From NCBI RefSeq assembly GCF_018413645.1, contig NZ_JAHCDA010000002.1, positions 1,054,001 to 1,118,000 on the forward strand: a stretch of DNA of 64,000 nucleotides, written 5' to 3'. Positions 4,779 to 28,281 of this stretch are shown here, piece by piece. The notes below the pieces were generated by a model, which did not search any database, was not told where the DNA came from, and saw only the letters and a list, made by a program, of their open reading frames with translations. Numbering within the stretch: position 1 is the first letter of the stretch; the number at the start of each line of letters is the position of its first letter. A program made the position numbers and the translations under genes. This DNA comes from Roseococcus pinisoli. GTDB lineage: Bacteria; Pseudomonadota; Alphaproteobacteria; Acetobacterales; Acetobacteraceae.

Positions 4779-5521
4779 GCCCTCGCCTTCCGGTTGAGGC
4801 TGCGGCCCAGATAGGCCTCGATGACCCCCGGGTCCTGCACCACGTCCTTAGGCGCCCCCTGCGCGATCACCTTGCCCTGGTGGAAGACCACGGCCCGGTT
4901 CGCGAGCGACAGGATGACCTCCATCACATGCTCCACGATGACGAGGGTGATGCCGCGCGCATGGATGCGGCGCACCAGCTCGATGGCGGCCCGTACCTCC
5001 GTGGGCGTCAGGCCGGCCAGTGCCTCGTCGAGCAGCAGGATCTCGGGCTCCGTCGCCAGGGCACGGGCGATCTCCAGGCGCTTGCGCGCTGGTGTCCCCA
5101 GGCTGCCGGACCGTGCCGCCGCGATGGGGCGCAGGCCGGTGAAGTCGATCACCTTCTCGGCGGCAGCCACGGCATCGGCGGTGCGCGGGTGCCGCAGGAA
5201 GGCACCCACCATCACGTTCTCCAGCACGCTCAGGTCGTCGAACACCGCGGGCACCTGCCAGCTCCGAGCGAGGCCCAGGCGCGCATGCTCCTCGGGCGTG
5301 GCCCGTGTCACGTCGTGGCCCCGCAGCATGATCGTGCCCGAAGCCGGCTGCCGGTCTCCTGCCAGGCAGTTGAAGAAGGTGCTCTTCCCCGCGCCGTTCG
5401 GCCCGATCAGCCCGATGATCTCGCCCTTGCCGATACTGAGCGAGGCGCCGTCGACCGCGCGGAAGCTTCCGAAGGCGACGACGATGTCGCGGGCTTCCAG
5501 CAAAGGGGCATCAGCCGGCAT
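4775..5521 (-). CDS. livG: branched-chain amino-acid-type ABC transporter ATPase LivG
   Basis: This is the first ATPase of the Liv importer, 248 residues from the chosen ATG at 5521 (MPADAPLLEARDIVVAFGSF). An in-frame ATG 96 bases upstream would lie well inside livM and is rejected. Walker A is LIGPNGAGKST and Walker B is ILLLDEALAGL. The ABC signature is the variant LGTPARKRLEIARAL, lacking the canonical SGG or YGQ core. The C-terminus has the LivG element VIEAYLG. The start overlaps the livM 3' end by 11 bases and the stop overlaps the livF start. Confidence 0.93.
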   Translation of the reverse strand: MPADAPLLEARDIVVAFGSFRAVDGASLSIGKGEIIGLIGPNGAGKSTFFNCLAGDRQPASGTIMLRGHDVTRATPEEHARLGLARSWQVPAVFDDLSVLENVMVGAFLRHPRTADAVAAAEKVIDFTGLRPIAAARSGSLGTPARKRLEIARALATEPEILLLDEALAGLTPTEVRAAIELVRRIHARGITLVIVEHVMEVILSLANRAVVFHQGKVIAQGAPKDVVQDPGVIEAYLGRSLNRKARA

Positions 5522-7360: not shown

Positions 7361-7370
7361 GGGGAGTTGC

Positions 7371-13822: not shown

Positions 13823-13835
13823 CGAGGCGCGGGGC

Positions 13836-13868
13836 GGGGCGGAACGGCGGCGGGTGCCGTTTCGCCCC
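13836..13868 (+). terminator. strong hairpin after the CitE-like gene
   Basis: A 12-bp stem (GGGGCGGAACGG / CCGTTTCGCCCC, one G-T wobble) with a 9-base loop lies 13 bases after the stop codon. No T-run follows, so it is a likely but not classical terminator. Confidence 0.5.
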
Positions 13869-13920
13869 GATGACCTGGTCGGCGAAGTTGACACCTCGAA
13901 TTCCGGAGTCCAGATTTTCG

Positions 13921-13935
13921 TCAGTATATTACTGA
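13921..13935 (+). promoter_or_regulatory. inverted repeat TCAGTA-TAT-TACTGA upstream of the PEP-CTERM gene
   Basis: Perfect 6-bp arms around a 3-base centre, placed about 54 bases before the predicted transcription start of the PEP-CTERM gene and upstream of its sigma-54 box. It has the form of a dimeric activator site and could bind a sigma-54 activator such as PrsR. The spacing is shorter than the usual 70-200 bases for such enhancers, so the role is inferred. Confidence 0.45.
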
Positions 13936-13955
13936 AATCACTTAATATTATAGAG

Positions 13956-13972
13956 TGGCACGGAACCTGCTT
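13956..13972 (+). promoter_or_regulatory. sigma-54 promoter (-24/-12) of the PEP-CTERM gene
   Basis: The bases TGGCACGGAACCTGCTT carry a perfect -24 element TGGCACG and a -12 element CTGCT, with GG and GC exactly 10 bases apart. Only the first T of TTGC differs from consensus. Start of transcription would be near 13982, giving a leader of about 47 bases with ribosome site caggga before the ATG at 14029. Established work on PEP-CTERM systems links their expression to RpoN and the PrsK/PrsR pair, both of which are encoded in this window. Confidence 0.75.
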
Positions 13973-14028
13973 TGCCTGATTGGTCGGCACTCCAACCCCG
14001 GGGCGCGACGAAACCAGGGAGAGCTATC

Positions 14029-14760
14029 ATGTTCATGAATATGCGCGGCGCCGCTTCTGCCGCCGCCCTATCGATGGCAGTCATCTTCGGCCCTGCTGTC
14101 GCCAGCGCCGCCTCCGTCACCATCAATGCCACGGCGCCGAGCTGGTCGAACGTGGTCGGCGGCACCAACGTCAACACGGGCACCTCGGGCACCGGCAACA
14201 ACACGGTCACGCAGGTCCATTGGGGCTCCCCCTCGAACAGCCAGAGCGGCCTGGGCTTCAATCCCGCCAACCCGCCGGCAGCCGTCGTCAACACGGACAC
14301 CACCTTCCTGCTCGGCACGCTGACGCACTACAATGAGCCGATCAACAGCGGCACGGCGGCCAGCTCCGCCCGCCTGAACCTCGCGACCACCATCGCGGGC
14401 GCCGTGCCCAGCACGCAGACCTTCAGCTACCAGTTCCTGATCGACGAGACCCCGAACACCCCGCCCTGCGCCTATCCCAGCACCACGCCCTGCGCGGACC
14501 GCATCACCTTCAACAACCTGACCACCTCGTCGTCCTTCATGATCGGCGGCGTGCCCTACACGATCGAGCTGCTCGGCTTCTCGAGCAATGGGGGCGCCAC
14601 CATCAGCAGCTCCTTCATCAGCCAGGAAGGCGGCTCGAACAGCATCCAGCTCTATGCGCGGATCACCACCCCGACCCCCGTGCCGGAGCCTGCCAGCTTC
14701 GCGATCCTCGGTGCCGGCCTGCTTGGCCTCGCCGCGGCCCGCAAGCGCCGCCAGAGCTGA
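14029..14760 (+). CDS. THxN-family PEP-CTERM sorted exported protein
   Basis: Secreted or surface protein of 243 residues. The N-terminus from the ATG at 14029 gives a signal peptide (cleavage near ASAASV). The body is Ser/Thr/Asn-rich and contains the THxN motif as LTHYNEPIN, the feature that names a family of PEP-CTERM proteins. The C-terminus has the complete sorting signal: VPEPASF, a hydrophobic segment (AILGAGLLGLAAA) and the basic tail RKRRQS. It should be processed by an exosortase (XrtA type) and linked to exopolysaccharide metabolism. The start was chosen for its ribosome site and because an earlier in-frame ATG would lie within or before the sigma-54 box. Confidence 0.9.
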   Translation: MFMNMRGAASAAALSMAVIFGPAVASAASVTINATAPSWSNVVGGTNVNTGTSGTGNNTVTQVHWGSPSNSQSGLGFNPANPPAAVVNTDTTFLLGTLTHYNEPINSGTAASSARLNLATTIAGAVPSTQTFSYQFLIDETPNTPPCAYPSTTPCADRITFNNLTTSSSFMIGGVPYTIELLGFSSNGGATISSSFISQEGGSNSIQLYARITTPTPVPEPASFAILGAGLLGLAAARKRRQS

Positions 14761-14778
14761 TCTCCGGATCGCTCGATG

Positions 14779-14806
14779 GGGAGAGGAAGGCTTGCCTTCC
14801 TCTCCC
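14779..14806 (+). terminator. 13-bp perfect hairpin after the PEP-CTERM gene
   Basis: Arms GGGAGAGGAAGGC and GCCTTCCTCTCCC flank a TT loop, beginning 18 bases after the stop codon. No U-tract follows. It most likely ends or stabilises the short PEP-CTERM transcript. Confidence 0.6.
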
Positions 14807-15097
14807 GCCTTCCGCTGCGGCGCCTCTCGGAGAGGCGTAAAGTTTACCTGCAGCTCCGTTTAAAATCCTTGCATTGTTGCGATGCGGCATACATTTCGCC
14901 GCCACCGACCAGGCGCGATCCGTCGCGTTTCCAGCCCAGGACCGCCGAAGGCGGGGACCGGCTCGGGGAGGACGGATGGCAGCAGACTGGCGCAATCGCC
15001 CGCCTCGCCGGCCACCCGGCCTCTCCTCCCTGGCCCTCACGACGCGGCCCTCATCAGGAGATCAGCCACGCGGCCTCGGTCGCAGCGCCCCATCCCT
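14807..15097 (+). other. intergenic region before the type I secretion operon
   Basis: No convincing gene is seen. A second small hairpin (CGCCTCT/AGAGGCG, 14821-14837) runs directly into the palindromic AT-rich GTAAAGTTTAC. Further on, from about 14860, is the only plausible promoter zone for the downstream transporter genes, but no clear -35/-10 pair was found. Confidence 0.4.
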
Positions 15098-16819
15098 ATG
15101 GCAAGTCCTATATCCAACACCGGCGATACCGCGCTCACGCGCGCCATCGCCTCGTGCCGCGGTCTTTTCTGGACCGTCGGCGTCTTCTCCGGCGTCGCGA
15201 ACCTGCTGCAGCTGACGGTGTCGCTGTACATGATGCAGGTCTTCGACCGCGTGCTGACCACGCGCAACACCGACACCCTCGTCTATCTGACCATCATCGC
15301 GATCGCGGCCATCGGCGTCCTCGCCGCGCTGGACGCGATCCGCGGCGCCATCATGCGCCGCATGGCGGGATGGATGGAGCGCCGGATCGCGCCCGAGGGC
15401 TTCGCGCGCGCGCTGGAGGCGCGGCTGCGCGGCCGGCCCTATCGCATGGAGGCGCTGCGGGACCTTTCCACGGTTCGGGGCTACCTCGGTTCGCCCGGCA
15501 TGCTGGCGATCTACGACCTGCCCTGGGTGCCGGTGTACCTCTTCGTGATCTTCCTCCTGAACCCGATCCTCGGCGCCGTGGCGCTGGGCGGCGCCCTGCT
15601 GCTGATGCTCCTCACCCTCGTCAGCGAGGCCGTGACCACGCGCCTGCTGCGGGAGGCGGGAACGGCGGCCCAGGCCACGCAGCGCCGCGCCGACGCCATC
15701 GGCCGCAATGCCGAGGTGATCGACAGCATGGGGATGCTGCCGGCCGTCCTGTCGCGCTGGCAGGAGGAGGTGGCGCGGATGATCCCGCCGCAGTCCCGCG
15801 CGGCCGACCGGGCCAGCTGGATCACCGGCCTCACCCGCTTCGCCCGCCTCGCCGTCCAGCTCGCGATCCTGGGCCTCGGCGCCTGGCTGGTGCTGCGGCA
15901 GCAGATGACGGCGGGCTCCTCCATCGCGGCCTCCATCATCATGGGCCGGGCGCTGGCCCCGGTCGAACAGCTGGTCGGCGCCTGGAAGCAGCTGGTCGAC
16001 GCGCGGCAGTCCTTCCGCCGGCTGCAGACCTTCCTGGCCTTGCCCCGCCTTCGACCCGAGGGGATGCGCCTGCCCTCCCCGGCCGGCTGGCTCTCGGTCG
16101 AGCGCCTTTCCTACGTGATCCCGGGCAGCCAGGAGGCCGTGCTCAAGGGCGTCGGCTTCGCCCTCTCGCCCGGCGAATCCCTGGCCATCATCGGCCCGTC
16201 GGCCGCCGGCAAGACGACGCTGCTGCGCCTGCTGGTCGGCGTGGCGCCGCCTTCCACCGGCCATGTCCGGCTCGACGGCGCGGATGTCTTCCTCTGGCAG
16301 CGCGAGGATTTCGGCCGCCACGTCGGCTACCTGCCGCAAGATATCGAGCTCTTCGACGGCACCGTGTTCAGCAACATCGCCCGCCTGACCGATTCCGGGC
16401 CGGAAGCGGTCTTCGAGGCCGCGAAGCTCGCCGGCTGCCACGAGATGATCCTGCGCCTCCCCGAAGGCTACGACACGCAGATCGGCGAGGGCGGTATCCA
16501 TCTCTCGGGCGGGCAGCGGCAGATGATCGGCCTGGCCCGCGCCTTCTTCGGCGATCCGAAGTTCGTCGTGCTGGATGAGCCGAGCGCCAGCCTCGACGGC
16601 GAGGGCGAGCAGGCGCTGGCCCGCGCCCTGGCCACGCTGAAGGAGCAGGGCACGACGGTCGTGGCCGTCACGCACCGGCCCTCGCTGGTCCAGGCCCTCG
16701 ACAAGGTGCTGGTTCTGAAAGCCGGCACCGTCGCCACCATCGGGCCCAGGGGCGAGGTCATGCGCCGGCTGGCGCCGCCCGCCGCCCGCCTCGCCGCCGT
16801 TGCGGAGGAAACGCCATGA
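15098..16819 (+). CDS. type I secretion ABC transporter/permease (PrtD family)
   Basis: Inner-membrane ATPase of a type I secretion system, 573 residues. About six membrane segments occupy residues 20-300 (for example LFWTVGVFSGVANLL and FVIFLLNPILGAVAL). The nucleotide-binding domain follows with Walker A IIGPSAAGKTT, signature LSGGQRQMIG and Walker B FVVLDEPSASLD. There is no N-terminal C39 peptidase domain, so substrates should have C-terminal uncleaved signals. The ATG at 15098 (MASPISNTGDTALTRAI) was chosen because the upstream extension is compositionally shadow-like. The stop overlaps the adaptor start (ATGA). The outer-membrane TolC partner is not nearby. Confidence 0.92.
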   Translation: MASPISNTGDTALTRAIASCRGLFWTVGVFSGVANLLQLTVSLYMMQVFDRVLTTRNTDTLVYLTIIAIAAIGVLAALDAIRGAIMRRMAGWMERRIAPEGFARALEARLRGRPYRMEALRDLSTVRGYLGSPGMLAIYDLPWVPVYLFVIFLLNPILGAVALGGALLLMLLTLVSEAVTTRLLREAGTAAQATQRRADAIGRNAEVIDSMGMLPAVLSRWQEEVARMIPPQSRAADRASWITGLTRFARLAVQLAILGLGAWLVLRQQMTAGSSIAASIIMGRALAPVEQLVGAWKQLVDARQSFRRLQTFLALPRLRPEGMRLPSPAGWLSVERLSYVIPGSQEAVLKGVGFALSPGESLAIIGPSAAGKTTLLRLLVGVAPPSTGHVRLDGADVFLWQREDFGRHVGYLPQDIELFDGTVFSNIARLTDSGPEAVFEAAKLAGCHEMILRLPEGYDTQIGEGGIHLSGGQRQMIGLARAFFGDPKFVVLDEPSASLDGEGEQALARALATLKEQGTTVVAVTHRPSLVQALDKVLVLKAGTVATIGPRGEVMRRLAPPAARLAAVAEETP

Positions 16820-18165
16820 ACATCCGCCAGGGCCTCGTGCCCGCCACCGCCATCGGCCTGGACTTCAGCACCGGCGACCGGGATCGCCCGCACACGAAGC
16901 GCCTCGTCGCCGCCGGCCTGATCATCACCGTGGGCCTCTTCGGCGGGTTCATGACCTGGGCGGTGCTCGCGCCGTTGGCCGAGGCGGCGATCGCGCCGGG
17001 CGTCATCAAGGTCGAGGGCACGCGGCGCACGCTGTCGCATCTCGAGGGCGGCATCGTCCGGGAGATCCTGGTGCGCGACGGCAGCCGCGTCGAGGCCGGG
17101 CAGCCCGTCATGCGGCTGGACGACGTTCAGTCCGGCTCGGCGCTCGAAGGCTTCCGGGCGCAACGCTTCGCGCTGCTCGCCCAGGCGGCACGGCTGGAGG
17201 CCGAGGCCGCCGATGCCTCCGCGATCAGCTTCCCCGCCGATCTCGCCTCCGCCGGGAATTTCCGCGCGCAGGAAGCCATGGCCGGCCAGCGCGCGCTTTT
17301 CGACGCGCGGCAGGCCAGCCTCGCCAGCCAGCTCACGGTCCTGGAATCGCGGGTGTCGCAACAGCAGGCCGCGATCGCGGGCGCCGAGGGGCAGATCGAG
17401 GCGACGCATCGGCAGCTCGATCTCATGCGGCAGGAGGAGGCGATGCGCAGCAACCTGGTGCGCCAGGGGCTGGCTCGCATTCCCGACCTGCTGGCCCTGC
17501 AGCGGGGCCTGGCGGCGCTGGAAGGCCAGGAGCAGGACCTTCTGGGCCAGGTGCGACGCGCCGAGGGCATGATCGCCGAGGCGCGGAACGGCATCACCCA
17601 GGCCCGCGACATGCGCCGGCAGGAGGTTGGGACCGAGGCGCGGGACGTCGCCGGGCGCCTGGCCGAGGCGGAGGAGCGCCTGCGCGCGGCCGCCGATGTC
17701 TCCGCGCGCCGCGAGCTTCTGGCGCCGGAGGCCGGCACGGTGGTGAACCTGCGCCAGTTCACGCTGGGCGCCGTACTGCGGCCCGGCGATCCCGTCATGG
17801 ATCTGGTGCCCGCGGCCGATCGGCTGGTCGCCGAGGTCAATGTGCAGCCGAACGACATCGACGTGGTGCATGCCGGGCTTCCGGCCGATGTGCGGCTCCC
17901 GGCCTTCCGTGCGCGCCTGGTTCCGGTGCTGCACGGCCACGTGACCTTCGTGGCCGCCGACGTGACGACGGACCCGCAGACCCAGGCCAGCCATTTCCGC
18001 GCGCATATCCGCATCGACGAGGAGCAGCTGGCGGCGCTTCCCGGCGTGACGCTCGTCGCGGGCATGCCGGTTGAGAGTTACATTCAGATCGGGACACGAA
18101 GCTTCTGGAAATATTTGACTCAACCTATCCGCGACAGTCTGACCCGCGCCTTCACGGAGCAATAG
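16816..18165 (+). CDS. HlyD-family type I secretion periplasmic adaptor (PrtE-like)
   Basis: Membrane-fusion subunit of 449 residues that links the PrtD-like ATPase to an outer-membrane channel. A short cytoplasmic N-terminus precedes one membrane segment (LIITVGLFGGFMTWAVLAPL, near residues 35-55). Then come the lipoyl half-motif HLEGGIVREILVRDG, a long coiled-coil hairpin (about residues 110-300), and the second barrel part LAPEAGTVVNLRQFTLG. The end AGMPVESYIQIGTRSFWKYL is characteristic of type I adaptors. Its start overlaps the transporter stop, so both are made together. The likely cargo is the CBM60 protein encoded 5.5 kb downstream. Confidence 0.93.
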   Translation: MNIRQGLVPATAIGLDFSTGDRDRPHTKRLVAAGLIITVGLFGGFMTWAVLAPLAEAAIAPGVIKVEGTRRTLSHLEGGIVREILVRDGSRVEAGQPVMRLDDVQSGSALEGFRAQRFALLAQAARLEAEAADASAISFPADLASAGNFRAQEAMAGQRALFDARQASLASQLTVLESRVSQQQAAIAGAEGQIEATHRQLDLMRQEEAMRSNLVRQGLARIPDLLALQRGLAALEGQEQDLLGQVRRAEGMIAEARNGITQARDMRRQEVGTEARDVAGRLAEAEERLRAAADVSARRELLAPEAGTVVNLRQFTLGAVLRPGDPVMDLVPAADRLVAEVNVQPNDIDVVHAGLPADVRLPAFRARLVPVLHGHVTFVAADVTTDPQTQASHFRAHIRIDEEQLAALPGVTLVAGMPVESYIQIGTRSFWKYLTQPIRDSLTRAFTEQ

Positions 18166-18452
18166 GCTCCAGCTTTTCTGTCGTCGGCGCGGAAATATCG
18201 ACGGATCATCCACGCCTGGGACGCTCCGACAAGGTGCGATCCCAGGGATGTGAATAACACTTACAATTAATTCTATTTTTGGACGCAAAAAGAAAATTAG
18301 TTTCACAAAATATAAAATTTACTCGTATTTTTCGCTGATTTTATTAATGGCGGCCAGTCGGCAATTCGGTATCATATAAACCAGAATGCAAACCGAGATG
18401 GCTCTCCCGATGACCGCCCATTCGCTCGGACAGCGATGACGAGGGGACGCGC
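18166..18452 (+). other. AT-rich intergenic region before the large signalling chimera
   Basis: No gene is seen. The first part holds a 7-bp inverted repeat (CCTGGGA at 18215, TCCCAGG at 18240) that may end the secretion operon. From about 18250 to 18350 the GC content falls to roughly 22 percent in a genome near 70 percent, and this is presumably the promoter region of the gene starting at 18453. Confidence 0.5.
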
Positions 18453-21400
18453 TTGAACGCCGACTCCCCCAGCACCTGCCTGGCGGAGATCATCGTCACG
18501 CTGCAGGCAGAAGGATTGGAAAAGGCCGCGGATCTCCTGGCGGTCCTGCCGCTTGGCAGGCGGATGGGCTTCGTCCTCTTTCTCGACACGCAGGAACAGG
18601 TGGCCCAGCTGACGAAACAGCTGTCGACCTCGCCGCCCCTTCCGGCCGTCACCGCCGCCGATGGAATGCCCATCCTGGCCGACCAGCTTCACGTGAGCGC
18701 GGCGGGCGCCTTCAACGTGACGGCGGGGGCGCTGCATGCACTGGCGCCGGCCTCCCGCTCCGATCCGCGGGCTGCCTTCGACGACATGCTGCGCGACCTC
18801 GCGATGAGCCACGGCGCCAAGGCCGTGGCCATCATGCCGAGGGCCTCGCGACAACTCCCCGGGGCCGAGCTGTTCCGCGAGGCCGGCGGGCATCTCATCG
18901 ACGCGGAACTTGCCCTCCGCCACGCCGGCTGGGCGGAGGAATTGTTCCAGGGCGAGACAACCCCCCCTGCCCGGCTCGACCCCAAAAGCGTCGAGGCCCG
19001 GCCGCTTCGCGCCCGCCGGGCGGCCCGGCGCGCAATCCCGCCCAGCGAAAGCCCGCGGATGGACGCCGCGATTGGTGCTGCTTCCCAGAAGCCGGAAGGC
19101 CTTCTCGGCGATCCCGCCGATCTTGCGATGCTCGAGGAACGCTTCCTGCCAGCGCTGGCCGCCGCCCGTGCCCCTGCCTCCGCCCACCTTCGCGTCTGGG
19201 TGCCAGGCTGCGGCACCGGCGAGGCCGCCTACGCGATCGCGATGGCCGCCAATGCGGCGGCCATCCAGGCCGGCCTCGCCCTGCAGGTCCTCGCTTCCGA
19301 CCCCAGCGCGGCCGCGATCGATCAGGCGCGCCGGGGCATCTATCCGCGCGAGGCCGTCGCCAAGATCCCGCCCTCCCATGTCGGGCGATATCTTCGTGAG
19401 CAGGACGGCGAATGGCGGGTGGAAGACGCGCTTCGCTCCCGCATCGTCTTCGGCACGCATGAGCTCCTGCACGATCCCCCCTTCTCCCGCATCGACCTCA
19501 TCGCCTGCCCGAGCCTGCCGGGCGCGCTTCTGCCGGCGACGCGATCGCGGGTCCTGGGCGCCTTCCGCTTCGCGCTGAACCCCGCGGGGCTGCTCTACCT
19601 GCCGGAAGGCGAGGAGGTTCCGGCCGATGCAGGGTTCGACCCGATCTCCGTACGGCCGCATCTCCTCCGGCGCATCGCGGCCATGGACAGTGCCCGGGCG
19701 CCGGCGCGGCGAAATGCCTCCGCCCAGGCGATGCCGCAGGACCTCGCCCTGGCCAAGCGCGCCGCCGCCGAGGAATTCAACCCCGCCGCCATCCTGATCG
19801 ATGCAGCCAGGGGCGTGGCCGCCACGGTCGGCCCCGTCGAGCGCTTCGCCGAGGTGGCGATCGGCGACACGCCGGAGGATCTCCTCTCCCACGCCGCGCC
19901 GTGGCTTCGTCGCGGCCTTTCGCACGCTGTCACAAAAGCCTGGCGAACCGGCCAGGACCAGTCCTGGCAGGCCCTGCGCCCCGGGACGGATTCCATCGCC
20001 CAACCCGTCGCCATCCGCGCGCGGCATCTGCGCGACGGTGATCGGGCACTGCTGCTGGTCAGCCTGCACGAGCTGCCGGTTGCTGCCCCGGCCGGCGCAC
20101 CGCAGCCGAGCAGACCCATCGACCCGGACCTGGCCGAGGAAAGCGAGACGCTGCGGGAAGCGATCGAGAGCCAGCGCCTGCAACTCGCCGCCCTTCGGCA
20201 GCAAGCGAGCCTCGCGCGCGAAGAGGCGTTGTCGCTTCAGGAAGAACTCGCCTCGGCCCATGCGCAGCTGGAGGAGGAGCGCCGGCGGCAGCGCGGCGTG
20301 GAACGGCTGCAGGATATCCTGCGCAGCTGCGGCATCGCGATGCTGGTGCTCGACCCGGCGCTCTCCATCCGCTTCTTCACCTCCTCGCCGCTGCTGCCAT
20401 TCCGGATGATCCCGGGCGACATCGGCCGGCCGCTGGCCGATATCGCGCCGTTGGTCGACGACCCGGACCTCCTGGAGGGCGCCGCGCGCGTCCTGGCGAC
20501 GCGGGGGACGGCTAGCCGGGAGCTGGAAGGGCCTGACGGGGCCTGGCTCATGCGGCGGATCCATCCCTGCCTGGACCGGCATGAGGCCGTGACCGGCCTG
20601 GTCGTCACCTATGCCGATATCCGGGAGACCAAGGCCGCTGGAAACCGCGCGGATGCGCTACGCGGCATGGCGGCCGACATCGTCCAGAGCTACGGCCGGC
20701 CGGTCGTCATGATGGACGCGAACCTGCACGTCGTCTTCGCCAACGACGCCTTCCACGAGACCTTCGGCTCCGATGACGGGCACGACGACGAGAATACGCT
20801 CCGCCTGCTCATCGGACCCGCGCTGCGCGCCGTGCCGCATCTCGCAACCTTCCTCACCGGCCGCGACGACCGGTTCGAGCGGATCGAGGACTGCGTGATC
20901 CAGGCCACCCTGCCCGCGATGGGCCTGCGGACGCTGCGGCTGGCGGTCAGCCGCGTGCCGCCGGGCCGGACGCTCATCGTCGTGGAGGATGTCACCGAGC
21001 GCGTCGTCGCGACCGCCGGCCTCGAAAAAGCGAAGGCGGCAGCCGAGCGTGCCAACCGCGAGAAATCGCGGCTCCTGGCCACCATCAGCCAGGAGCTGCG
21101 CCCCTCGCTGCGGGATATCGAGGAGCTGTCCCAGGGCCTGCGCGAGCCCGAAGGCCCGGCTGGTCTGACGCCGAAGCAGCGCGGCCTCGAGATCGGGCTG
21201 CGCGAAATGTCGGGCATCCTGGATGCCTTGCAGGACGGCGCCCGGCTCGATCTGGGTACCTTCAACATGAGCTCCTCGACCTTCGCGCTCGGCGCGCTGC
21301 TGGAGGAGATCGACCTGGATTTCACCCAGGAGGTCCGTGCGCGCGGCCTGCGCTGGCGCGTCCTTGCAAGCGAGCGCGTGGTGGTCAGCGACGCGCAGCT

Positions 21401-22748
21401 CCTGCACCAGGTGCTGAGGAACCTCATCTCCGTCCTCCTGCGCTATACGGCGACGGGGCGGATCCTCGTCGGTTGCCGGCGCCGGGGCGAGCTTCTCGGC
21501 CTGGAGGTCTGGAGCGAGGGGCTGCAGATCCCGCTTCCGGTGCTCCGCGCCTCCTTCGATCCCCGCGTGGACGGGCCGGCCTTCGGCGAAAGTGCAGATG
21601 CTTCCCGCTTCGGCCTGGAGGTCGCGCATCGCCTGAGCGAGCTCCTCGGCCATCCGATCCGCCTCGAAACACGCGTCCCGGGCACGCCGGCCTTCATCAT
21701 GGAACTGCCGACGGCCGCGCGCCCGGCAACGCGTCTGCTTTCCGGCGGGGATCAGGAGGGACAACGGCCGATCCTCATCGTCGGCGAGATGTCCATGCTC
21801 GCCGACTCGCTGCGGCTCCTGCTCGAGCAGGACGGCTATACGGCGATGCTGGCGACGGACGCCCCCTACGCCATCGGCCTTGCCGTCGAGCACCCGCCGG
21901 CGCTCATCGTCGCGGAATACGAGCTGCCTGGCCGCCTTACCGGCCTCGATCTCGCACGGCGGATCGGCGACACGCAGGACCCGCCGCCGCCCGCCATCCT
22001 GCTGACGGGCGATCTTCCAGCCGCCCTGCTGCATGACATCGCCAGCGCCGACTTCACGCACGTGCCGGAGTCGATCCGGCCTGAGGAACTGCTCGAACTC
22101 ATCCGACGCCAGCTTCCACGGGCCAGCGCGCCCGCCACGATGCCCGCCTCGCTGGGCCGGATCTTCATCGTGAACAGCGATGCCACCTCACGCCTCGCCA
22201 TGGGGGAATGGCTGCAGAACCACGGCTGGGTCACGGAATGCTTCGCAAGCGCGGAGGTCTTTCTCGACAGCGACACGCCGGAACGCCGCGGCTGCGTGCT
22301 GGTCGACTGGTCGCTGGCGGGGATGGGCGGCCTCGCGCTGCTGGGCATCCTGCGGCCTTTGAGCCACCGGCTGCCGGTGATCATGCTCGCCGAGCAAGGC
22401 GACATCCGCCTGGCGGTGCGGGCGATCTCGGAGGGCGCGATCGATTTCATCAAGCGCCCCGTCCAGTACGACGCGCTGCTGCGAAGCATCGAGAAGGCCA
22501 TGCTGAAGGTGGCAGCCAGCGCCCAGCACCAAGCCTCAAGGACAGAGCTGACGGTGCGCCTGGCCAGCCTCACGCAACGCCAGCGCGAGATCCTGGAAAG
22601 GATCGTCGCCGGCATGCCGAACAAGATCATCGCGGCGGAATTGAACCTGAGCCAGAGGACGGTCGAGAACCACCGGGCGGCCCTGATGTCCAAGCTGGGT
22701 GCGCGGTCACTCTCGGAACTGATCCGGATCGTGGTGGCCGCGCCTTAA
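18453..22748 (+). CDS. CheB-CheR-PAS-kinase-receiver-receiver-LuxR chimera with degenerate catalytic sites
   Basis: A 1431-residue predicted cytoplasmic signalling protein starting at TTG with ribosome site aggggac. Residues 1-155 resemble CheB methylesterase but the Ser, His and Asp of the triad are missing (ASAGG is replaced by LQAEG). Residues 205-420 are CheR-like with an intact SAM loop VPGCGTGEAAYAIAM, while the usual CRNLLIY motif reads CPSLPGA. Residues 555-625 form a coiled coil, then two PAS-like domains. A kinase region follows whose H-box reads ISQELRPSL (Gln880 instead of His) and whose N-box lost its Asn. Receiver 1 (1106-1225) lacks the acceptor Asp; receiver 2 (1236-1355) keeps Asp1285 and a Lys. 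Residues 1365-1431 are a FixJ/LuxR-type helix-turn-helix. It probably works by binding rather than catalysis. Target genes are unknown. Confidence 0.85.
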   Translation: MNADSPSTCLAEIIVTLQAEGLEKAADLLAVLPLGRRMGFVLFLDTQEQVAQLTKQLSTSPPLPAVTAADGMPILADQLHVSAAGAFNVTAGALHALAPASRSDPRAAFDDMLRDLAMSHGAKAVAIMPRASRQLPGAELFREAGGHLIDAELALRHAGWAEELFQGETTPPARLDPKSVEARPLRARRAARRAIPPSESPRMDAAIGAASQKPEGLLGDPADLAMLEERFLPALAAARAPASAHLRVWVPGCGTGEAAYAIAMAANAAAIQAGLALQVLASDPSAAAIDQARRGIYPREAVAKIPPSHVGRYLREQDGEWRVEDALRSRIVFGTHELLHDPPFSRIDLIACPSLPGALLPATRSRVLGAFRFALNPAGLLYLPEGEEVPADAGFDPISVRPHLLRRIAAMDSARAPARRNASAQAMPQDLALAKRAAAEEFNPAAILIDAARGVAATVGPVERFAEVAIGDTPEDLLSHAAPWLRRGLSHAVTKAWRTGQDQSWQALRPGTDSIAQPVAIRARHLRDGDRALLLVSLHELPVAAPAGAPQPSRPIDPDLAEESETLREAIESQRLQLAALRQQASLAREEALSLQEELASAHAQLEEERRRQRGVERLQDILRSCGIAMLVLDPALSIRFFTSSPLLPFRMIPGDIGRPLADIAPLVDDPDLLEGAARVLATRGTASRELEGPDGAWLMRRIHPCLDRHEAVTGLVVTYADIRETKAAGNRADALRGMAADIVQSYGRPVVMMDANLHVVFANDAFHETFGSDDGHDDENTLRLLIGPALRAVPHLATFLTGRDDRFERIEDCVIQATLPAMGLRTLRLAVSRVPPGRTLIVVEDVTERVVATAGLEKAKAAAERANREKSRLLATISQELRPSLRDIEELSQGLREPEGPAGLTPKQRGLEIGLREMSGILDALQDGARLDLGTFNMSSSTFALGALLEEIDLDFTQEVRARGLRWRVLASERVVVSDAQLLHQVLRNLISVLLRYTATGRILVGCRRRGELLGLEVWSEGLQIPLPVLRASFDPRVDGPAFGESADASRFGLEVAHRLSELLGHPIRLETRVPGTPAFIMELPTAARPATRLLSGGDQEGQRPILIVGEMSMLADSLRLLLEQDGYTAMLATDAPYAIGLAVEHPPALIVAEYELPGRLTGLDLARRIGDTQDPPPPAILLTGDLPAALLHDIASADFTHVPESIRPEELLELIRRQLPRASAPATMPASLGRIFIVNSDATSRLAMGEWLQNHGWVTECFASAEVFLDSDTPERRGCVLVDWSLAGMGGLALLGILRPLSHRLPVIMLAEQGDIRLAVRAISEGAIDFIKRPVQYDALLRSIEKAMLKVAASAQHQASRTELTVRLASLTQRQREILERIVAGMPNKIIAAELNLSQRTVENHRAALMSKLGARSLSELIRIVVAAP

Positions 22749-22773
22749 CCGGCGTACGGAGGAGGCTGTGGTC

Positions 22774-23259
22774 CTACTCCGCCGTGAGGGCCTCATCCGA
22801 TCCCGGGCCACGGGCGACGGCCCGGGCAAAGGCAATGAGGGCGAGCCGCCGGCGCGGATCGCTGATGGCCCCATAGGCCTCGACGAGCTCGACCAGATCG
22901 TCGGACGCCGCGCCGTCGAGCAGCTGGGCGGGCATGGCCGGGGTGGTCGCCTTGGCGCTCATCAGCACCTCGGGCCGCGTGCCCAGAGCAGCTGCGATGG
23001 CCATGAGCCGGCTCGCGGCGACGCGCGTCGCGCCCGTCTCGTAGCGGTGGAACTGCGCGCCGGTCACGCCGATCGCCATGGCGATCTCCTTCTGCGTATG
23101 ACCGGCGGCGCGCCGGAGCTCCTTGATCCGCACACCGACCCGAGCATCGGCGGAAGTCGGCGATCGGTTATTGAGCCCCACCTCGTCGGCCAGCTGAGCG
23201 CGGCCGGCGTTTGTGTCGATCCGGCCATCGCCAGATCCGATTTTCACACTGTGCAGCAT
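22774..23259 (-). CDS. XRE-family helix-turn-helix transcriptional regulator
   Basis: DNA-binding protein of 161 residues. The Cro/CI-type helix-turn-helix spans about residues 42-100 (VGVRIKELRRAAGHTQKEIA, then FHRYETGATRVAASRL), followed by an acidic, Ala-rich C-terminal tail of 60 residues with no known effector fold. The N-terminal 40 residues are not conserved-looking, so a later start is possible. The gene converges on the signalling chimera with only 25 bases between the stops. Targets are unknown; it may control itself or the neighbouring secretion genes. Confidence 0.82.
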   Translation of the reverse strand: MLHSVKIGSGDGRIDTNAGRAQLADEVGLNNRSPTSADARVGVRIKELRRAAGHTQKEIAMAIGVTGAQFHRYETGATRVAASRLMAIAAALGTRPEVLMSAKATTPAMPAQLLDGAASDDLVELVEAYGAISDPRRRLALIAFARAVARGPGSDEALTAE

Positions 23260-23670
23260 CCCTTACCCTCCTTCACTTCCATATGCCGCCGTGACCTGGA
23301 CATAACTGACCTATGCCTCGGTGAAGCCTGGTGACGCCGCTGTGGCGCTCGGCATCAGCCCTCAATACGGATAGGACGGCTGAGTTTCCCTTCCAGTTGA
23401 TCGCGCCGTGCGGTTTTCGTCACACGACTGATCGAGAAGGAAATTACCTGACGCCCTGCCGCCGTGACAGGATCGGAAAATACTCAGGCCAGGACATGGA
23501 TTTTTGGGTCGGCAAGGGCCCCTCGGGCGCCAACTCGCCCGAGGGTTGCAATCATTATAGGAGCCGGGCGTCGCTCTGCGGAAAATACCCGGCCCCAAAT
23601 TGCGCAGAACGAAGAGCGTGGATTGCACGCAATCTCATAGCTAACGCAATTAACTATTTAATCGACTGTC
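23260..23670 (-). other. intergenic region with a 10-bp hairpin
   Basis: About 410 bases without a supportable gene. It contains the presumed promoter of the XRE regulator and the 3' flank of the large CBM60 gene. A perfect hairpin (CCCTCGGGCG-CCAACT-CGCCCGAGGG, 23520-23545) may act as a terminator for the leftward CBM60 transcript, although no T-run follows on either strand. Confidence 0.45.
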
Positions 23671-26600
23671 CTAGAACGAGAAAATCGCATCTCCCTGGTG
23701 GGGCACCGGGGTTTGGACATGATGCTCCATCTCGTTGGATGACACGACCTCAACGTAAAGGTTGTGATCCGCCGGGGCAGTCCCCACGCCGTCCTGCAGG
23801 GAAGCGGCCGCCGGATCATGCCCCTGGTCGATCGAATGCTGAAGCTCGATTGCCTCCGCCTCGGTCTGGGCCTGCGAAGCGGTCGCGGCGACCTCTTGCC
23901 CCGCCCCCTCACCCGGCGTGGCCGCCGTGACCCCGTGCCCGTCCTCCGAGACGAGGATCCGGGAGACATCCGCCGCAGCGAGCGCCACCGGTGCCGCCGC
24001 CTTCGCGCCACTGAAGGAGAAGGCCGCATCGCCTTCGTTGAAAAGGCTTGCGGCGAAGTGGAGATCCACTCCGTTCAGCGAAGCGGAATCGAGGTAGAGG
24101 TTTCGATCCGTATCCGCGGTTCCGCCCCAGGCATCGTTGAGGAAGCGCACCGTCACCGCATGCTCGCCGTCGGAGAAGTTGCCCGTCAGCTCGAGGAACT
24201 GCTGCTCCCCCGCCGCATGCGACGCCGTGACCGCGCCGCGGCTTACCTCCTGCCCATCGACCAGGACGGCGTACTGGGCATCGCCCCGCCATTCGTCCTG
24301 CGACAGCGCGAGGCGCAGCACGTCCGGCCCGGTCGACGGCGCGGTGCCACCTTCCGTCTGGCCCGGCGGCGTCGTGCCCGGAGAGGTGGGCGAGATGGCG
24401 AAGTCCGCCTCGCCATTCTCCAGCAGTGCCTGGTGCTGGCCGGTGTCCACGCCATTCACCAGCACGGCCTGGACATGGAGGTTGCGATCGGTGTCGGCCG
24501 ACCCGCCCCAGGCATCGTTGAGGAACTCCACGGTGATCTTATGCGCCGCGTCCGCCGCGTAGTCGCCGAGATCGATCTTCTCGCCGCCGGCGGTGTGCTG
24601 GGCCGAGACCGTCCCGCGGAACACCTCCTCCCCGTCGACGCGAATGACGGCGAGAGGGTCGCCATTCCAGCTCTCCGCGCCGAGCACGACGGCAAGCGAG
24701 ACGTGGTCGCCAGGATGGCCGGCTTCCGGCTTACCGGGTGTCGTGCCCGGATCGGTGCCGGGATGGGTACCGGGATCCGTGCCGGGATGCGTTCCCGGAT
24801 CCGTCCCGGGGATCGTGCCCGGATCCGTCCCCGGATGCTCGCCCGAACCGTTGCCGGGTTCAGGCGGCGTCACCACCGGCACCTGGCCGACATGGTCGGG
24901 GCTGACCCCCGGCTTCGGCGCCGAACCGTCCGGTCCCGCGATGGCGTAGGTCGGGTCGCGCTGGTAGTCGCTCGTCCCGGTGAAGGGCGGCGCGTCGTGC
25001 ATCAGCGCGTCATAGGCCGCCTTCGCCTCGGCCGAGCCGGTCAGCCGGTAGATGCCCGCCAGCGTCGCCAGCGCCAGCTGCGCATAGTCGCCCTGGGTCT
25101 GGGACCAGCCGTCCCCGTTGCTCCAGCCGCGCGCCTCGGTCTGCTCGCCGATCTGCGCCCAGGTCGTGTAGGGCGCGGAACCATCAGCGGTATCGCTGAT
25201 GGCGATCAGATAGGCCGCGCCATCATGCTGGTCGAAGCCCTCCGCCGCATGGGTGAAGCGGCCCACGAGGAAATTGGCCTGCCAGTTCAGGAAGGTCAGC
25301 GCATCCGCGTTGCCGCGGCTGGCGGCCGCGATCACGGTGGAGGCGAAGTAGTCCTGCTGCCAGGGCGGCATCGCGCCCGCGGCGCCATAGTTTCCCGGCA
25401 CCCAGCCATGCGCCTCGCCCTGCTGCGCGGTCCATTCCGGGATCTTGGAGACGAGCCAGGCGTAGTTGTCGGCCGAGGCTTTCTGGAAATAGGCCTGCTC
25501 GGGGCTGCCATCCGGCGCGGTCCAGGCCGCCTCGTCGATCTCGCGCAGCGCCCAGGCCGCGCCTCGCACCTGGTTCTCGTTGATGACGTTGTCGTCCGCA
25601 CCGCCGCGCGTCGGCGGGTACTGGCCGAGGATGTTGGAGGCAGCCTGCGCCGAAAGGTTGTCGAGCATCCAGCGCTCGCCCGTCAGCACATAGGGCACGA
25701 AAGAGAGGTTCGGCTGGTGGGCGACGTCCACGGTCCAGCCCGTGTCGTCCGGCACCTGCTGGGTGAGCCCGCCCGAGTTGGCGTCGCCGGGCGTGCCGGT
25801 GCCGCCGCGGCCATCCGTCCAGAGCTGGGGATAGTCGTCGGTGCTCAGCCAGGTCTTGTTCGCGGCGTCCCAGAAGTTCCAGGGCACCGAGCCGGAAGCT
25901 TCTGCCTGGCCCATCGCATAGGCCGCCGCATGCGCGTCCTGGCTGATCAGCCAGGAGGTATTGGCCAGCGTGGTGAAGCCGATATCCGCGCGGCCGCCAG
26001 TGCCCGGCATGTAGGGCGAGACGCCGTTCATCGCGAGCGGATCGCCCCAGCCCGCGGCCTGGGTGGCGGCGGCATATTCGGCGAGAAGGCTCGGATTGAC
26101 CGAAAGCCCCAGGTCGTAGCCGGCGACGACGCCGGCCTCCTGCAGATGGGAGACGTCGTGCCGGATGTTCAGCCAGCCGGCGCTGGGATCGCCCGTCCCC
26201 TGCCCGCCATCGGCGGCGTTGCTGGAGAAGCTCTCGTGCCAGTTCTGGTACTGGGCCTGGCTTACCGTCTCGCGGGCCGCCTCGCGGCCGTCCATGTGGA
26301 CGGTGAGGTCGTAGTCGACGCGGCCGCCCGAGGCGCCCATGGCGCCGTCGTTGTTGAACTGGGCGTCGACCGAGAAGCCGCCGCCCTTATAGGCCGTCAC
26401 GTCGAAGACGAGGCGCTGGGAGCCGGCGAGGTCGACCTCCACGCGCGCCTGGGTCGCCAGCTCACCCTGCTGCCAGAAGCTGGCGGTGCCGGCGGCCATG
26501 GCCTTCTGCAGGGCGTCGAGCACGTCCACGCTGACATGCGAACCGCCATGGATATCGAGATCGACCACGAAGGAGTGGCCGGACAGCGCCTGGTTGAGCT

Positions 26601-26889
26601 CGATGGCAGCGGCGGAGGTGGGCGCGCCGGTCGCGAGCTTGACGTCGAGCGTGGTGCCGGCGGCGATGGCGGGACGCTCGACGGACAGCACCGCCATCTT
26701 CACCGAACCATCGGCGTAGCGTGTCTTCACATCGAGCTGAACCGCGTGGGAGACGCCGCCGAAATCGGCGGTGAGCGAAGAACCCTGGGGAACTTCACCG
26801 GGAAGGAAGACCTGGCCGAAGCTGGCCACTCCGGCCTGCAACGTCGAGATGCCAGCATTCTCGAAACCGAGACTAACAATGTCGGGCAA
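23671..26889 (-). CDS. putative secreted glycan-active protein: RIFT-barrel/toroid-like region plus CBM60-type modules
   Basis: A 1072-residue protein starting at TTG (ribosome site ggaga, 8 bases upstream) without a signal peptide. Residues 1-110 resemble the RIFT-barrel start of PcRGLX/YetA-like lyases (LDVKTRYADGSVKMAVLSVE). Residues 110-650 are rich in Trp/Tyr helix-like repeats (NQVRGAAWALREID, GEAHGWVPGNYG, PPWQQDYFAST) suggesting an alpha-toroid. A PGTDPGT linker (675-722) leads to two CBM60-like modules (about 728-835 and 845-960), each with FLNDAWGG and DTDRNL, and a partial third at the C-terminus (ADHNLYVEVV) ending GDAIFSF. Lack of a Sec signal and the nearby PrtD/HlyD genes suggest type I secretion. 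Residues 1-650 are paralogous to the lipoprotein at 44911-46947. Lyase or hydrolase activity on polysaccharide is inferred. Confidence 0.72.
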   Translation of the reverse strand: MPDIVSLGFENAGISTLQAGVASFGQVFLPGEVPQGSSLTADFGGVSHAVQLDVKTRYADGSVKMAVLSVERPAIAAGTTLDVKLATGAPTSAAAIELNQALSGHSFVVDLDIHGGSHVSVDVLDALQKAMAAGTASFWQQGELATQARVEVDLAGSQRLVFDVTAYKGGGFSVDAQFNNDGAMGASGGRVDYDLTVHMDGREAARETVSQAQYQNWHESFSSNAADGGQGTGDPSAGWLNIRHDVSHLQEAGVVAGYDLGLSVNPSLLAEYAAATQAAGWGDPLAMNGVSPYMPGTGGRADIGFTTLANTSWLISQDAHAAAYAMGQAEASGSVPWNFWDAANKTWLSTDDYPQLWTDGRGGTGTPGDANSGGLTQQVPDDTGWTVDVAHQPNLSFVPYVLTGERWMLDNLSAQAASNILGQYPPTRGGADDNVINENQVRGAAWALREIDEAAWTAPDGSPEQAYFQKASADNYAWLVSKIPEWTAQQGEAHGWVPGNYGAAGAMPPWQQDYFASTVIAAASRGNADALTFLNWQANFLVGRFTHAAEGFDQHDGAAYLIAISDTADGSAPYTTWAQIGEQTEARGWSNGDGWSQTQGDYAQLALATLAGIYRLTGSAEAKAAYDALMHDAPPFTGTSDYQRDPTYAIAGPDGSAPKPGVSPDHVGQVPVVTPPEPGNGSGEHPGTDPGTIPGTDPGTHPGTDPGTHPGTDPGTTPGKPEAGHPGDHVSLAVVLGAESWNGDPLAVIRVDGEEVFRGTVSAQHTAGGEKIDLGDYAADAAHKITVEFLNDAWGGSADTDRNLHVQAVLVNGVDTGQHQALLENGEADFAISPTSPGTTPPGQTEGGTAPSTGPDVLRLALSQDEWRGDAQYAVLVDGQEVSRGAVTASHAAGEQQFLELTGNFSDGEHAVTVRFLNDAWGGTADTDRNLYLDSASLNGVDLHFAASLFNEGDAAFSFSGAKAAAPVALAAADVSRILVSEDGHGVTAATPGEGAGQEVAATASQAQTEAEAIELQHSIDQGHDPAAASLQDGVGTAPADHNLYVEVVSSNEMEHHVQTPVPHQGDAIFSF
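24732..24838 (-). repeat. tandem PGTDPGT-encoding linker repeat
   Basis: Inside the CBM60 gene, imperfect 12- to 24-base repeats encode a Pro-Gly-Thr-Asp linker (units HPGTDPGT, IPGTDPGT, TPGK) of about 35 residues that separates the catalytic-like region from the binding modules. Such DNA is prone to slippage, so its length may vary between strains. Confidence 0.8.
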
Positions 26890-27249
26890 TGGATTCTCCG
26901 ATAGTTCTCACACAGCGGCGCTCATCTGCCCGCCAGACCGCCGAAACCAAAGCGAAGAATCATTAAATCCGACGACAAGAAATTTACCAAAACAAAAAAT
27001 TTATAATTACTTATAAACATCAAAATGATAAATAAAAAAATTCTTATCAATGATAAAACTCTATACGTCTTAAACTTCACTTTCTGTCAAAAATCTTTAC
27101 ATACCTGTATATTTAGCATAACAGGGAATGAACCACGATTTTGCCACATTCCAAAACCAGCAAGGTAGGCCGTCATTGCATGTCAACTCCCCTTCACTTC
27201 CATGATCACCCCTAGTGTTGGATGGATGGTTACAGGAAGAGGGAACGTT
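26890..27249 (-). other. very AT-rich regulatory region upstream of the CBM60 gene
   Basis: No gene is seen in these 360 bases. Bases 27001-27060 are only about 13 percent GC. On the minus strand a candidate promoter has TTGACA (27090-27085), a 19-base spacer and TATAGA (27065-27060), which would give a leader of about 165 bases before the TTG start at 26889. The spacer is longer than ideal, so this is tentative. The region also forms the 3' flank of the leftward glycosyltransferase operon. Confidence 0.4.
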
Positions 27250-28281
27250 TCAGTGGCGATCTCGTGGTTGAGCGCCCTCATCTCCCAAAGCAGGTAAGCT
27301 TAGCGGGCCGAGGCCGAAACTCTCTCGATATCCCTGCATCAAAGACCGGTCGGAGATGGGCTCGCCATCACGGCGCCGGCCGAAGAACCAGCATCCGCCC
27401 GCCGCATCCGCGCCGTTGGGCAGCCACCGGTCGAAACGCCGGAGGATTGGCGTCGCCATCAGCGACACCGCCCGCGCCCCCGCCCGCCACCAGTTCCGGG
27501 AAGAGACGGAGAGCAGCACACTCTGCAGCGCCCAGGCCGCGACGCTGCCGGTGCCCATCGCGACGCCGGCCGCCACCTCGTCGAAGTGACGGAAGAGGCG
27601 GCGATGGCCGATCGGCGTGAAGCGCGTGAAGTCGTAGGCGCCCATATGCACGGGCTGCAGGAAGGGCGTCACCGCATGGATGTATCCACCCGGCGCCAGG
27701 ACGCGATGGAACTCCGTCACGCAGCGCTGCGGATCCGCCACGTGCTCCAGCACCGCGACCGCCACCACCAGATCGAAGCTCGCATCCGGGAAAGGCAGGT
27801 CATGCGCGTCGGCGATGGTGTCGACGCCAGGCGCGAAGGCGACGTCGGTCTGGATGACGCAATCGCCCGGCCTGCCCAGCCGCAGGCCGCCCGAGCCCAC
27901 GACGAGGACGCGCGGGTCCTGATGGAGGCGCGCGACATAGGCCAGCGCGTCGTCCTGACCCGGATGCCGGATGGACGAAGGCGCCTCGGCGAGGCGCCGC
28001 ATCCACCGCCGCCAGAGCCGCCGCGGGCCGCTCGCGCGATCCGCGGCCCGCCCATAGGCCGCGCCCTCATAGCCAGGCCCTTCCGTGTAGTCGGCCACGG
28101 CGAAGACGGACCGCTCGTCATGGATGAGCACCGGGATGCCGCTGATCACCGGATAGGACTTGCCGCAATGCGTGCAGAATAGCGTCGACGCCCCTGGCAT
28201 GAGAGGCTGGCCGTCGCCGGGGCAATGCAGCGGGATCCCGCGCAGGGAGGCCGGGTTCGGCCGGCCGGTGCCACCATCCAT
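27250..28281 (-). CDS. SAM-dependent methyltransferase with Trm112-like N-terminus
   Basis: Class I methyltransferase of 343 residues, type 11. Residues 15-60 form a Trm112-like zinc-binding segment (LHCPGDGQPLMPG, then FCTHCGKSYPVISGIPVLI). The methyltransferase core follows with motif I VLVVGSGG, an acidic loop DVAFAPGVDTIADA, DLPFPDASFDLVVAVAVLEH and VLAPGGYIHAVTPF. The ATG at 28281 shares one base with the stop of the upstream glycosyltransferase (TGATG), showing it is the last gene of the leftward glycosyltransferase operon. It probably methylates a sugar of the exopolysaccharide or its lipid-linked precursor; the acceptor is not known. Confidence 0.88.
   Translation of the reverse strand: MDGGTGRPNPASLRGIPLHCPGDGQPLMPGASTLFCTHCGKSYPVISGIPVLIHDERSVFAVADYTEGPGYEGAAYGRAADRASGPRRLWRRWMRRLAEAPSSIRHPGQDDALAYVARLHQDPRVLVVGSGGLRLGRPGDCVIQTDVAFAPGVDTIADAHDLPFPDASFDLVVAVAVLEHVADPQRCVTEFHRVLAPGGYIHAVTPFLQPVHMGAYDFTRFTPIGHRRLFRHFDEVAAGVAMGTGSVAAWALQSVLLSVSSRNWWRAGARAVSLMATPILRRFDRWLPNGADAAGGCWFFGRRRDGEPISDRSLMQGYRESFGLGPLSLPALGDEGAQPRDRH

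Follow-up and report, generated by a model that had tools for sequence, protein, structure and literature searches.

A CheB-CheR-kinase-receiver-LuxR chain with decayed enzyme sites in Roseococcus pinisoli: a phosphorelay that may have become a phosphorylation-independent regulator

Introduction

Kinase, receiver and DNA-binding domain share a single polypeptide in the hybrid two-component systems of Bacteroides, where a membrane sensor kinase works through phosphorylation and where contacts between domains must hold DNA binding in check (PMC11253607). A comparable chain of 1431 residues is encoded by Roseococcus pinisoli (Acetobacteraceae), at positions 18453 to 22748 of the 64,000-nucleotide stretch of contig NZ_JAHCDA010000002.1 that we analysed as a whole and call the window. 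Like those hybrids, the window protein has kinase, receiver and DNA-binding domain in one polypeptide; unlike them, it has lost its phosphate chemistry, and a hydropathy scan found no membrane domain in it, the sole 19-residue stretch above 1.6 (maximum 1.81) falling within its second receiver. We lean, by a modest margin of belief, towards the reading that a one-protein phosphorelay became here a pseudo-enzyme and a phosphorylation-independent transcription regulator of its own locus.

Parts of this protein have counterparts among described pseudo-enzymes. Kinase folds without kinase chemistry are found in DivL (PMC4211667) and in the ChrS pseudokinase (PMC9491836). The window protein resembles them in this respect. 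To our knowledge, neither DivL nor ChrS carries a LuxR output domain of its own. A receiver lacking any one of five conserved residues is termed a pseudo-receiver (PMC12632262). By this definition both receivers of the window protein are pseudo-receivers, the first being also aspartate-less; here they share their chain with a pseudo-kinase and two pseudo-chemotaxis enzymes. The spirochete protein CheWS, finally, is a signalling protein fused, like the window protein, to a catalytically dead domain derived from CheR, which still binds S-adenosylmethionine (SAM) in the absence of catalytic residues; the passages covered mention no DNA-binding domain, where the window protein ends in LuxR (PMC10653840). 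Among the open-access papers searched we found none on the combined architecture, which does not imply that it is absent from print.

A relay that has lost its catalytic residues

The gene and the parts of its product are as follows, all on the forward strand.

18453..22748, forward: regulator gene, 1431 codons, with unbroken orthologues elsewhere in the genus
18453..18977, forward: CheB remnant, residues 1-175, triad Ser, His and Asp gone (alignment and Pfam match below cut-off)
19053..19688, forward: CheR remnant, residues 201-412, Pfam CheR 104.8 bits
20073..20300, forward: eroded coiled coil, residues 541-616, shortened, the canonical QSTNEELLTSKEELQSLNEEL stretch gone
20301..20630, forward: first PAS, residues 617-726, PAS_10 52.9 bits, well kept
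20631..20987, forward: second PAS, residues 727-845, an insert placed by alignment
20988..21272, forward: HisKA-like dimerisation segment, residues 846-940, Gln880 (21090-21092) replacing the phospho-accepting His
21273..21722, forward: HATPase_c remnant, residues 941-1090, 33 bits against a cut-off of 26.4, G1 and G2 boxes broken
21762..22127, forward: receiver 1, residues 1104-1225, Glu1155 at the phosphosite, Lys changed to Glu1206
22155..22508, forward: receiver 2, residues 1235-1352, Asp1285 kept, acid pair, Thr and Lys gone
22545..22745, forward: LuxR/GerE DNA-binding domain, residues 1365-1431, GerE 69.1 bits over positions 2-56 of 57

Translation begins at a TTG codon, directly downstream of a GAGGGG stretch, and one open frame runs through CheB, CheR, coiled coil, two PAS domains, kinase, two receivers and LuxR. 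An earlier note, made from the letters of the DNA alone, had this chain, its coordinates and its domain order right. The regulator is single-copy: it is the sole full-length match in its own genome, the 15 other listed matches being partial. Pfam reports above its cut-offs CheR, Response_reg (two stretches), GerE/LuxR, PAS_10, PAS_4, HATPase_c and Sigma70_r4_2; PAS_10 and PAS_4 both overlie the first PAS, and Sigma70_r4_2 the same helix-turn-helix as GerE. CheB stays below its cut-off (18.6 vs 24), the second PAS matches weakly (PAS_8, 16.8 vs 21.8), and HisKA is not listed for this protein at an expect value (E) up to 1.

Alignment to relatives bears out the losses that the earlier note had read from the letters. 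An active histidine kinase holds both the His of its H-box and the Asn of its N-box; the window protein has Gln880 for the first and Val994 in place of Asn994, and its ATP lid is broken. Because these three features are gone, no kinase catalysis is expected from it. The Ser-His-Asp triad of a CheB methylesterase is changed at all three positions. In CheR, CPSLPGA stands where relatives have the motif CRNLLIY. The SAM loop, which had been described as kept, is so in part: the Gly loop and Glu257 remain, as does Asp283, while the second Glu of the GEE sequence has become Ala258. Gly219, Pro353, Ser354 and Ala358 also replace conserved residues, so that the SAM-pocket and catalytic residues of a CheR methyltransferase are incomplete, at positions 219, 258, 354 and 358.

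The two receivers fare no better, neither having all five residues of a phosphorylatable domain. Receiver 1, correctly said to lack its Asp, shows Gly1111-Glu1112 at the acid pair, Glu1155 at the phosphosite and Glu1206 for Lys, with Thr1185 kept. Receiver 2 does retain Asp1285, as had been claimed, but is otherwise degenerate, with Asn1241-Ser1242 for the Asp pair, Ala1313 for Thr and Arg1335 for Lys. The last domain is of another kind. Its GerE helix-turn-helix is complete by sequence and is under constraint, as described below, and the opinion that DNA binding is the part preserved is upheld to this extent.

Relatives with the same chain and intact sites

The earlier note had held it unusual that a CheB/CheR-PAS chain should end in a FixJ/LuxR domain. 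This is not so. A tblastn search with the window protein against 72,556 plasmid records gave 1193 records with a match, the best spanning residues 246-1430 in one place and none of the 1193 covering 80% of the query. Among 12 annotated plasmid records inspected, 11 hold the whole chain in one gene of 4290 to 4590 bases, with intact sites, under the names 'chemotaxis protein CheB' or 'CheR family methyltransferase'; this rules out an unusual architecture. In the twelfth, from Methylocapsa polymorpha, a separate CheB gene (1595-2416) directly precedes a gene that runs from CheR to LuxR (2447-5875). A Novosphingobium record with no gene table has an open frame of the same length. Chains of 1429-1529 residues, built as CheB-CheR-coiled coil-PAS-kinase-receiver-receiver-LuxR, are thus widespread, and at E up to 1e-80 a homologue is found in 17 of 100 genomes of the family to which R. 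pinisoli belongs, its own being one of them.

We aligned 35 of 36 candidate proteins: 19 rows of a first alignment (A1) and 16 of the 17 family loci outside the window, one (L046) being dropped as no open frame was found by its motif. The picture outside the degenerate group described below is uniform. The H-box His and the N-box Asn are present in 31/31 rows each, the Asp of receiver 1 in 30/31, that of receiver 2 in 30/30 and its Thr or Ser in 30/30; the Asn of the CheR motif CRN stands in 29/29, and Ser, His and Asp of CheB in all 14 rows holding that part. A copy from Asticcacaulis (L043, 1475-5899) has Glu at the receiver-1 phosphosite and intact kinase, CheB and CheR motifs. Another relative (L044, in genome G141, 1215-3953) is an intact protein of 912 residues, with two PAS domains, kinase, two receivers and LuxR and neither CheB nor CheR.

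Canonical proteins such as those of Phyllobacterium sp. 628, Acidiphilium cryptum and Lichenicola cladoniae therefore share with the window protein the same one-chain domain order (29-35% identity for the plasmid rows), and both search and alignment support common descent along the length of the chain. They differ from it in keeping the residues of kinase, CheB and CheR, and those of the receivers with one exception in receiver 1, and in having no second PAS.

A clade in which the loss is graded

A match at E up to 1e-40 is found in 6 of 21 genomes of the genus: that of the window, and G008, G007, G001, G014 and G006 (loci L016, L017, L018, L032 and L033, in this order). The window copy and those of G008, G007 and G001 form a degenerate clade with support 100/100, on a stem of 1.31 changes per column; within it G007 splits first, on the shortest branch. 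The three orthologues are 44-47% identical to the regulator. The four frames count 1431, 1465, 1447 and 1544 codons and hold no stop, and unbroken orthologues in three other genomes of the genus rule out an assembly error or a frameshift joining separate genes, a possibility that had been held in reserve against the novelty of the case.

How much has been kept varies between copies. The 15 other rows of A1 share 232 invariant positions; of these G007 retains 167, G008 140, the window 133 and G001 128. All four have the second PAS, missing from those 15 rows, and all four have lost the N-box Asn, the CheB Ser and the Thr of receiver 2 (to Ala), with Glu as the second acid of receiver 1 throughout. 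The H-box His is Gln in three of them (window, G008, G001) and still His in G007, which also retains the CheB Asp, the receiver-1 Asp and the Lys of both receivers. The changes singled out in the earlier note, Gln880 and the losses of the triad, are conserved unevenly: N-box and CheB Ser losses are clade-wide, Gln880 is in three of four, and outside the clade these same sites are intact. In receiver 2, where the equivalent of Asp1285 is kept by all four, G007 and G001 lack Thr only, G008 Thr and Lys, and the window copy four of the five residues. Finally, at 22 sites all four copies share one residue that differs from the canonical one.

Since the copy that keeps most invariants branches first and on the shortest branch, the decay reads as stepwise and inherited within the clade, not as an error of assembly. 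The alignment and tree place the shared losses in or before the ancestor of the clade, and the loss of the phospho-accepting His in three copies after G007 had split off, while other residues of receivers, CheB and CheR would have gone differently in each copy.

The two remaining homologues of the genus stand apart. That of G006 (4836-8483) ends after its first receiver, with no second receiver and no LuxR, and one match row reports a TGA inside it. That of G014 is intact and lies at the same locus; together with the His and CheB Asp of G007 it partly answers to the intact orthologues that, in the earlier note, would have weakened the case. Free trees place the G014 gene apart from the degenerate clade. 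Grouping it with the clade was not rejected (approximately unbiased test, p-AU 0.50), and with the gene of G072 added, the tree holding the group together scored 6.95 log units higher (p-AU 0.715); the follow-up free tree and the grouping tests left out L044, L038 and L039 for their long branches, and the G006 gene. An independent origin of the G014 gene and the clade is thus not upheld, the constrained grouping not being rejected, and a shared ancestor at the locus is plausible.

Constraint is strongest on the DNA-binding domain

The ratio of nonsynonymous to synonymous differences per site (pN/pS, by Nei-Gojobori counts among clade members) ranks the domains in an order that favours the output end. 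LuxR, at 0.13-0.29, is under strong constraint. Receiver 2 (0.43-0.68) and the PAS domains (0.49-0.67) come next, and CheR (0.71-0.86), the linker 413-540 (0.56-0.96) and the CheB remnant with the coiled coil (0.70-0.99) are the loosest. A similar view comes from the canonical invariants kept in all four members: 16/20 in LuxR, 17/29 in the first PAS and 10/20 in receiver 2, then 8/21 in HisKA, 10/31 in HATPase, 1/4 in receiver 1, 16/54 in CheR, 7/30 in CheB and 1/15 in the coiled coil.

The locus and its neighbours

The regulator lies among the following features.

14882..16819, forward: type I secretion permease/ATPase of PrtD type, TIGR01842 677 bits, 70-79% identity in three congeners
16816..18165, forward: HlyD-type membrane fusion protein, TIGR01843 352 bits, 75-81% identity in congeners
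22774..23259, reverse: XRE-type (Cro/C1 helix-turn-helix) regulator, 71-74% identity in congeners
23439..23588, reverse: candidate operator in front of the XRE gene, made of three GTAWTTTCC(G) sites spaced by 105 and 36 nucleotides
23671..26889, reverse: protein of 1072 residues with two CBM60 stretches, PF16841 90.3 bits
38471-63194: XrtA/PEP-CTERM exopolysaccharide cluster, beyond the CBM60 gene
44911-46947, reverse: a second protein, akin to the CBM60 protein over the N-terminal part of the latter (47% identity)
52363-53766: PrsR
53763-55787: PrsK

Genes for the PrtD-type ATPase, HlyD, XRE and CBM60 proteins also flank the regulator in G008, G007 and G001. The CBM60 protein, probably the secreted cargo, is 61-66% identical in G008 and G007, and in G001 all that is seen is a fragment with 52% identity where a contig ends. 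The intact homologue of G014 is also next to the XRE and CBM60 genes, though differently oriented, and the 14-kb region covered there holds no secretion genes. Elsewhere in the family the association is not seen: at E up to 1e-8, neither CBM60 nor XRE is matched in any of 17 regions (7.7-19 kb) around the homologues. The CBM60 protein itself is matched in 11 of the 21 genus genomes, six of which have no regulator match.

The XrtA cluster holds amidotransferase, O-ligase, PrsT, PrsR, PrsK, glycosyltransferase, export protein, chain-length determinant and ATPase genes, and it is on the contig of the regulator in three congeners examined, G008, G014 and (in part) G007. The product of 44911-46947, with no NCBIfam match at 1e-10, is also present in G008, G007 and G014. 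No known RNA element was found in 13500-27500 at E up to 0.5, and a scan for consensus promoters (2 sites vs 1.1 expected) was uninformative.

A candidate operator array

The three sites in front of the XRE gene recur with the same spacing in G008, with small changes, and in G007 and G001, in copies that are more diverged and were read by eye from the alignment. Within the window by itself, allowing one mismatch, GTATTTTCCG is matched 3 times where 0.70 would be expected, and 2 of 100 shuffles reach that number; the weight of the array lies in its conservation rather than in this count. Across the 21 genus genomes, GTANTTTCCGATCCTGTC with up to two mismatches is matched perfectly only at the locus (G000, G008, G007). 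A two-mismatch copy is at the same place in G014, and scattered copies with one or two mismatches occur elsewhere; at this threshold none is listed at the G001 locus. A contig end of G005 with the XRE gene and no regulator match has no copy of the site in about 280 bases upstream.

Other places for an operator were considered. A one-mismatch GTATTTTCCG lies at 18325, in front of the regulator. The stricter scan found no copy of the site before the regulator in any of the four clade genomes, mismatched copies being unsought in the others. The regions before the regulator and before the CBM60 gene aligned poorly, inverted repeats being seen in the window, and were set aside. Nor could a genome-wide regulon be read: allowing two mismatches, the short form occurs 24 and 22 times in the genome, barely above the 18 and 20 occurrences of its backward control. 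The array may be the operator of the regulator or that of the XRE protein.

What the protein may do

The earlier note ended on a binding-based regulator, and this still appears to us the best reading, because the enzyme sites are lost, LuxR is kept and the pattern is inherited in a clade. The ancestor would have been a phosphorelay of the widespread CheB-CheR-coiled coil-PAS-histidine kinase-receiver-receiver-LuxR type. Its descendant would be a soluble dimeric scaffold, which takes its input from a ligand or partner bound at the two PAS domains and possibly at the CheR remnant; the signal would alter the packing of the old kinase and receiver domains so as to expose or hide LuxR, with no transfer of phosphate. 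To give up phosphate chemistry while keeping the contact between receiver and DNA-binding domain would be a credible route, because receiver contacts restrain the DNA-binding domain in single-chain hybrids (PMC11253607). From synteny, its targets would be the XRE and type I secretion genes and that of the CBM60 protein, with the XrtA/PEP-CTERM exopolysaccharide cluster as a possible addition. That an entire relay (kinase, receivers, CheB and CheR) turned into an allosterically gated factor independent of phosphorylation, congeners providing natural intermediates and, at the same locus, an intact homologue, and that it controls both secretion of the CBM60 protein and the XrtA/PEP-CTERM exopolysaccharide, is a much more tentative proposal, which we consider possible.

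Several points weigh against the reading that we prefer. DNA binding, targets, ligand and independence from phosphorylation are all matters of prediction. Constraint on the HisKA/HATPase region (pN/pS 0.53-0.76) and on receiver 1 (0.54-0.71) is roughly that seen in the PAS domains. With synonymous sites almost saturated, moreover, pN/pS ranks the domains and does not give a true omega. The bootstrap was not settled according to the tree program, and long branches meet in the tree, that of L044 with the clade. Single-sequence AlphaFold models were made for the CheR pocket and the two PAS domains; with mean predicted local distance difference test scores of 42.5 and 39.3, they were uninformative and left unused. 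It may be the XRE protein that binds the conserved array. Finally, because Asp1285 is kept by all four copies and receiver 2 is less damaged in those outside the window, outside phosphorylation may persist in the clade taken as a whole.

This last point leads to the rival that survives best, unlikely as we think it: an atypical response regulator, its kinase half dead, in which Asp1285 of receiver 2 would still receive phosphate from a different kinase (PrsK could be one) or from a small phosphodonor. Besides the universal Asp, the acid pair is Asp-Asp in G008 and Glu-Asp in G007 and G001, the last two having also kept Lys, and PrsK and PrsR are encoded in the adjoining XrtA cluster. Yet Thr is replaced by Ala in every member, the window copy has Asn-Ser for its acid pair and Arg for Lys, and PrsK has an adjacent response regulator of its own. 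The case appears weak for the window copy and stronger for those of G007 and G001; independence from phosphorylation and phosphorylation from outside can both be true, of different copies.

Rather less probable is a sensor of SAM or S-adenosylhomocysteine, in which the CheR remnant would gate LuxR in the manner of CheWS. The earlier note had suggested sensing of SAM or another ligand through this pocket, and one half of the evidence goes its way: of the canonical invariants, the SAM-side segments of CheR (246-260 and 278-293) retain 10 of 16 and the rest of the domain 6 of 38 (Fisher p 0.0012), or 10/19 and 9/55 at a 90% threshold (p 0.0045). The other half does not. We mapped the pocket by alignment to Salmonella CheR (1bc5), with an assumed chain offset, and took the contacts to be residues 98, 129 and 154, which would correspond to positions 219, 258 and 283; position 98, outside the alignment, was placed by the FFRD motif of the family. 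On this presumed numbering two of the three contacts are gone from the window copy. The Asp at 283 is kept in all four members, whereas the pocket Glu at 258 varies (Ala in the window, Glu in G008, Gln in G001, Glu in G007), as does the Arg98 position at 219 (Gly, Arg, Asp, Arg, in the same order), and the Asn of CRN and the Tyr of the motif are lost in all. In view of these three positions, SAM binding looks doubtful for the window protein and possible for those of G008 and G007. CheWS gives both the precedent and a caution: its double mutant of the pocket Glu297 and Asp321 no longer binds SAM, and the window copy retains the Asp alone (PMC10653840 for CheWS). The kept segments also build the core of the domain, and SAM sensing would at most be a feature of some members.

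More improbable again is a kinase-dead partner that dimerises with, or senses, another histidine kinase or response regulator, rather than acting mainly on DNA. DivL, a histidine kinase of Caulobacter repurposed to read a phosphorylated response regulator (PMC4211667), would be its model, and the former kinase segments do retain some constraint. The strongest constraint is in LuxR, not in the kinase core, and output through DNA is therefore the more likely, the two readings not being exclusive.

A dying gene, relaxed throughout and with its function already gone, is the least probable of all: the regulator is far less conserved (44-47%) than the neighbours with full-length matches (61-81%), its CheB and coiled-coil parts evolve nearly freely, and of 21 genus genomes the clade is confined to 4, two more having an intact homologue and a LuxR-less version respectively, but four long open frames, PAS domains and receivers of intermediate constraint, the 22 clade-fixed sites and above all a LuxR domain under strong constraint indicate that the gene is probably not dying.

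Meaning of the series

The architecture, then, is ordinary; the graded decay combined with a conserved output is the feature worth following. How pseudo-receivers switch is called a mystery in the 2025 review cited above (PMC12632262). Within one genus there is a natural series: an intact protein in G014, a copy with its His in G007, and copies that have lost it in G001, G008 and the window; receiver 2 has lost little in G007 and G001 and is at its most damaged in the window copy. With such a series one can enquire which signal is left to a protein deprived of its phosphate chemistry, and through which contacts between domains that signal is still passed to the DNA-binding domain.

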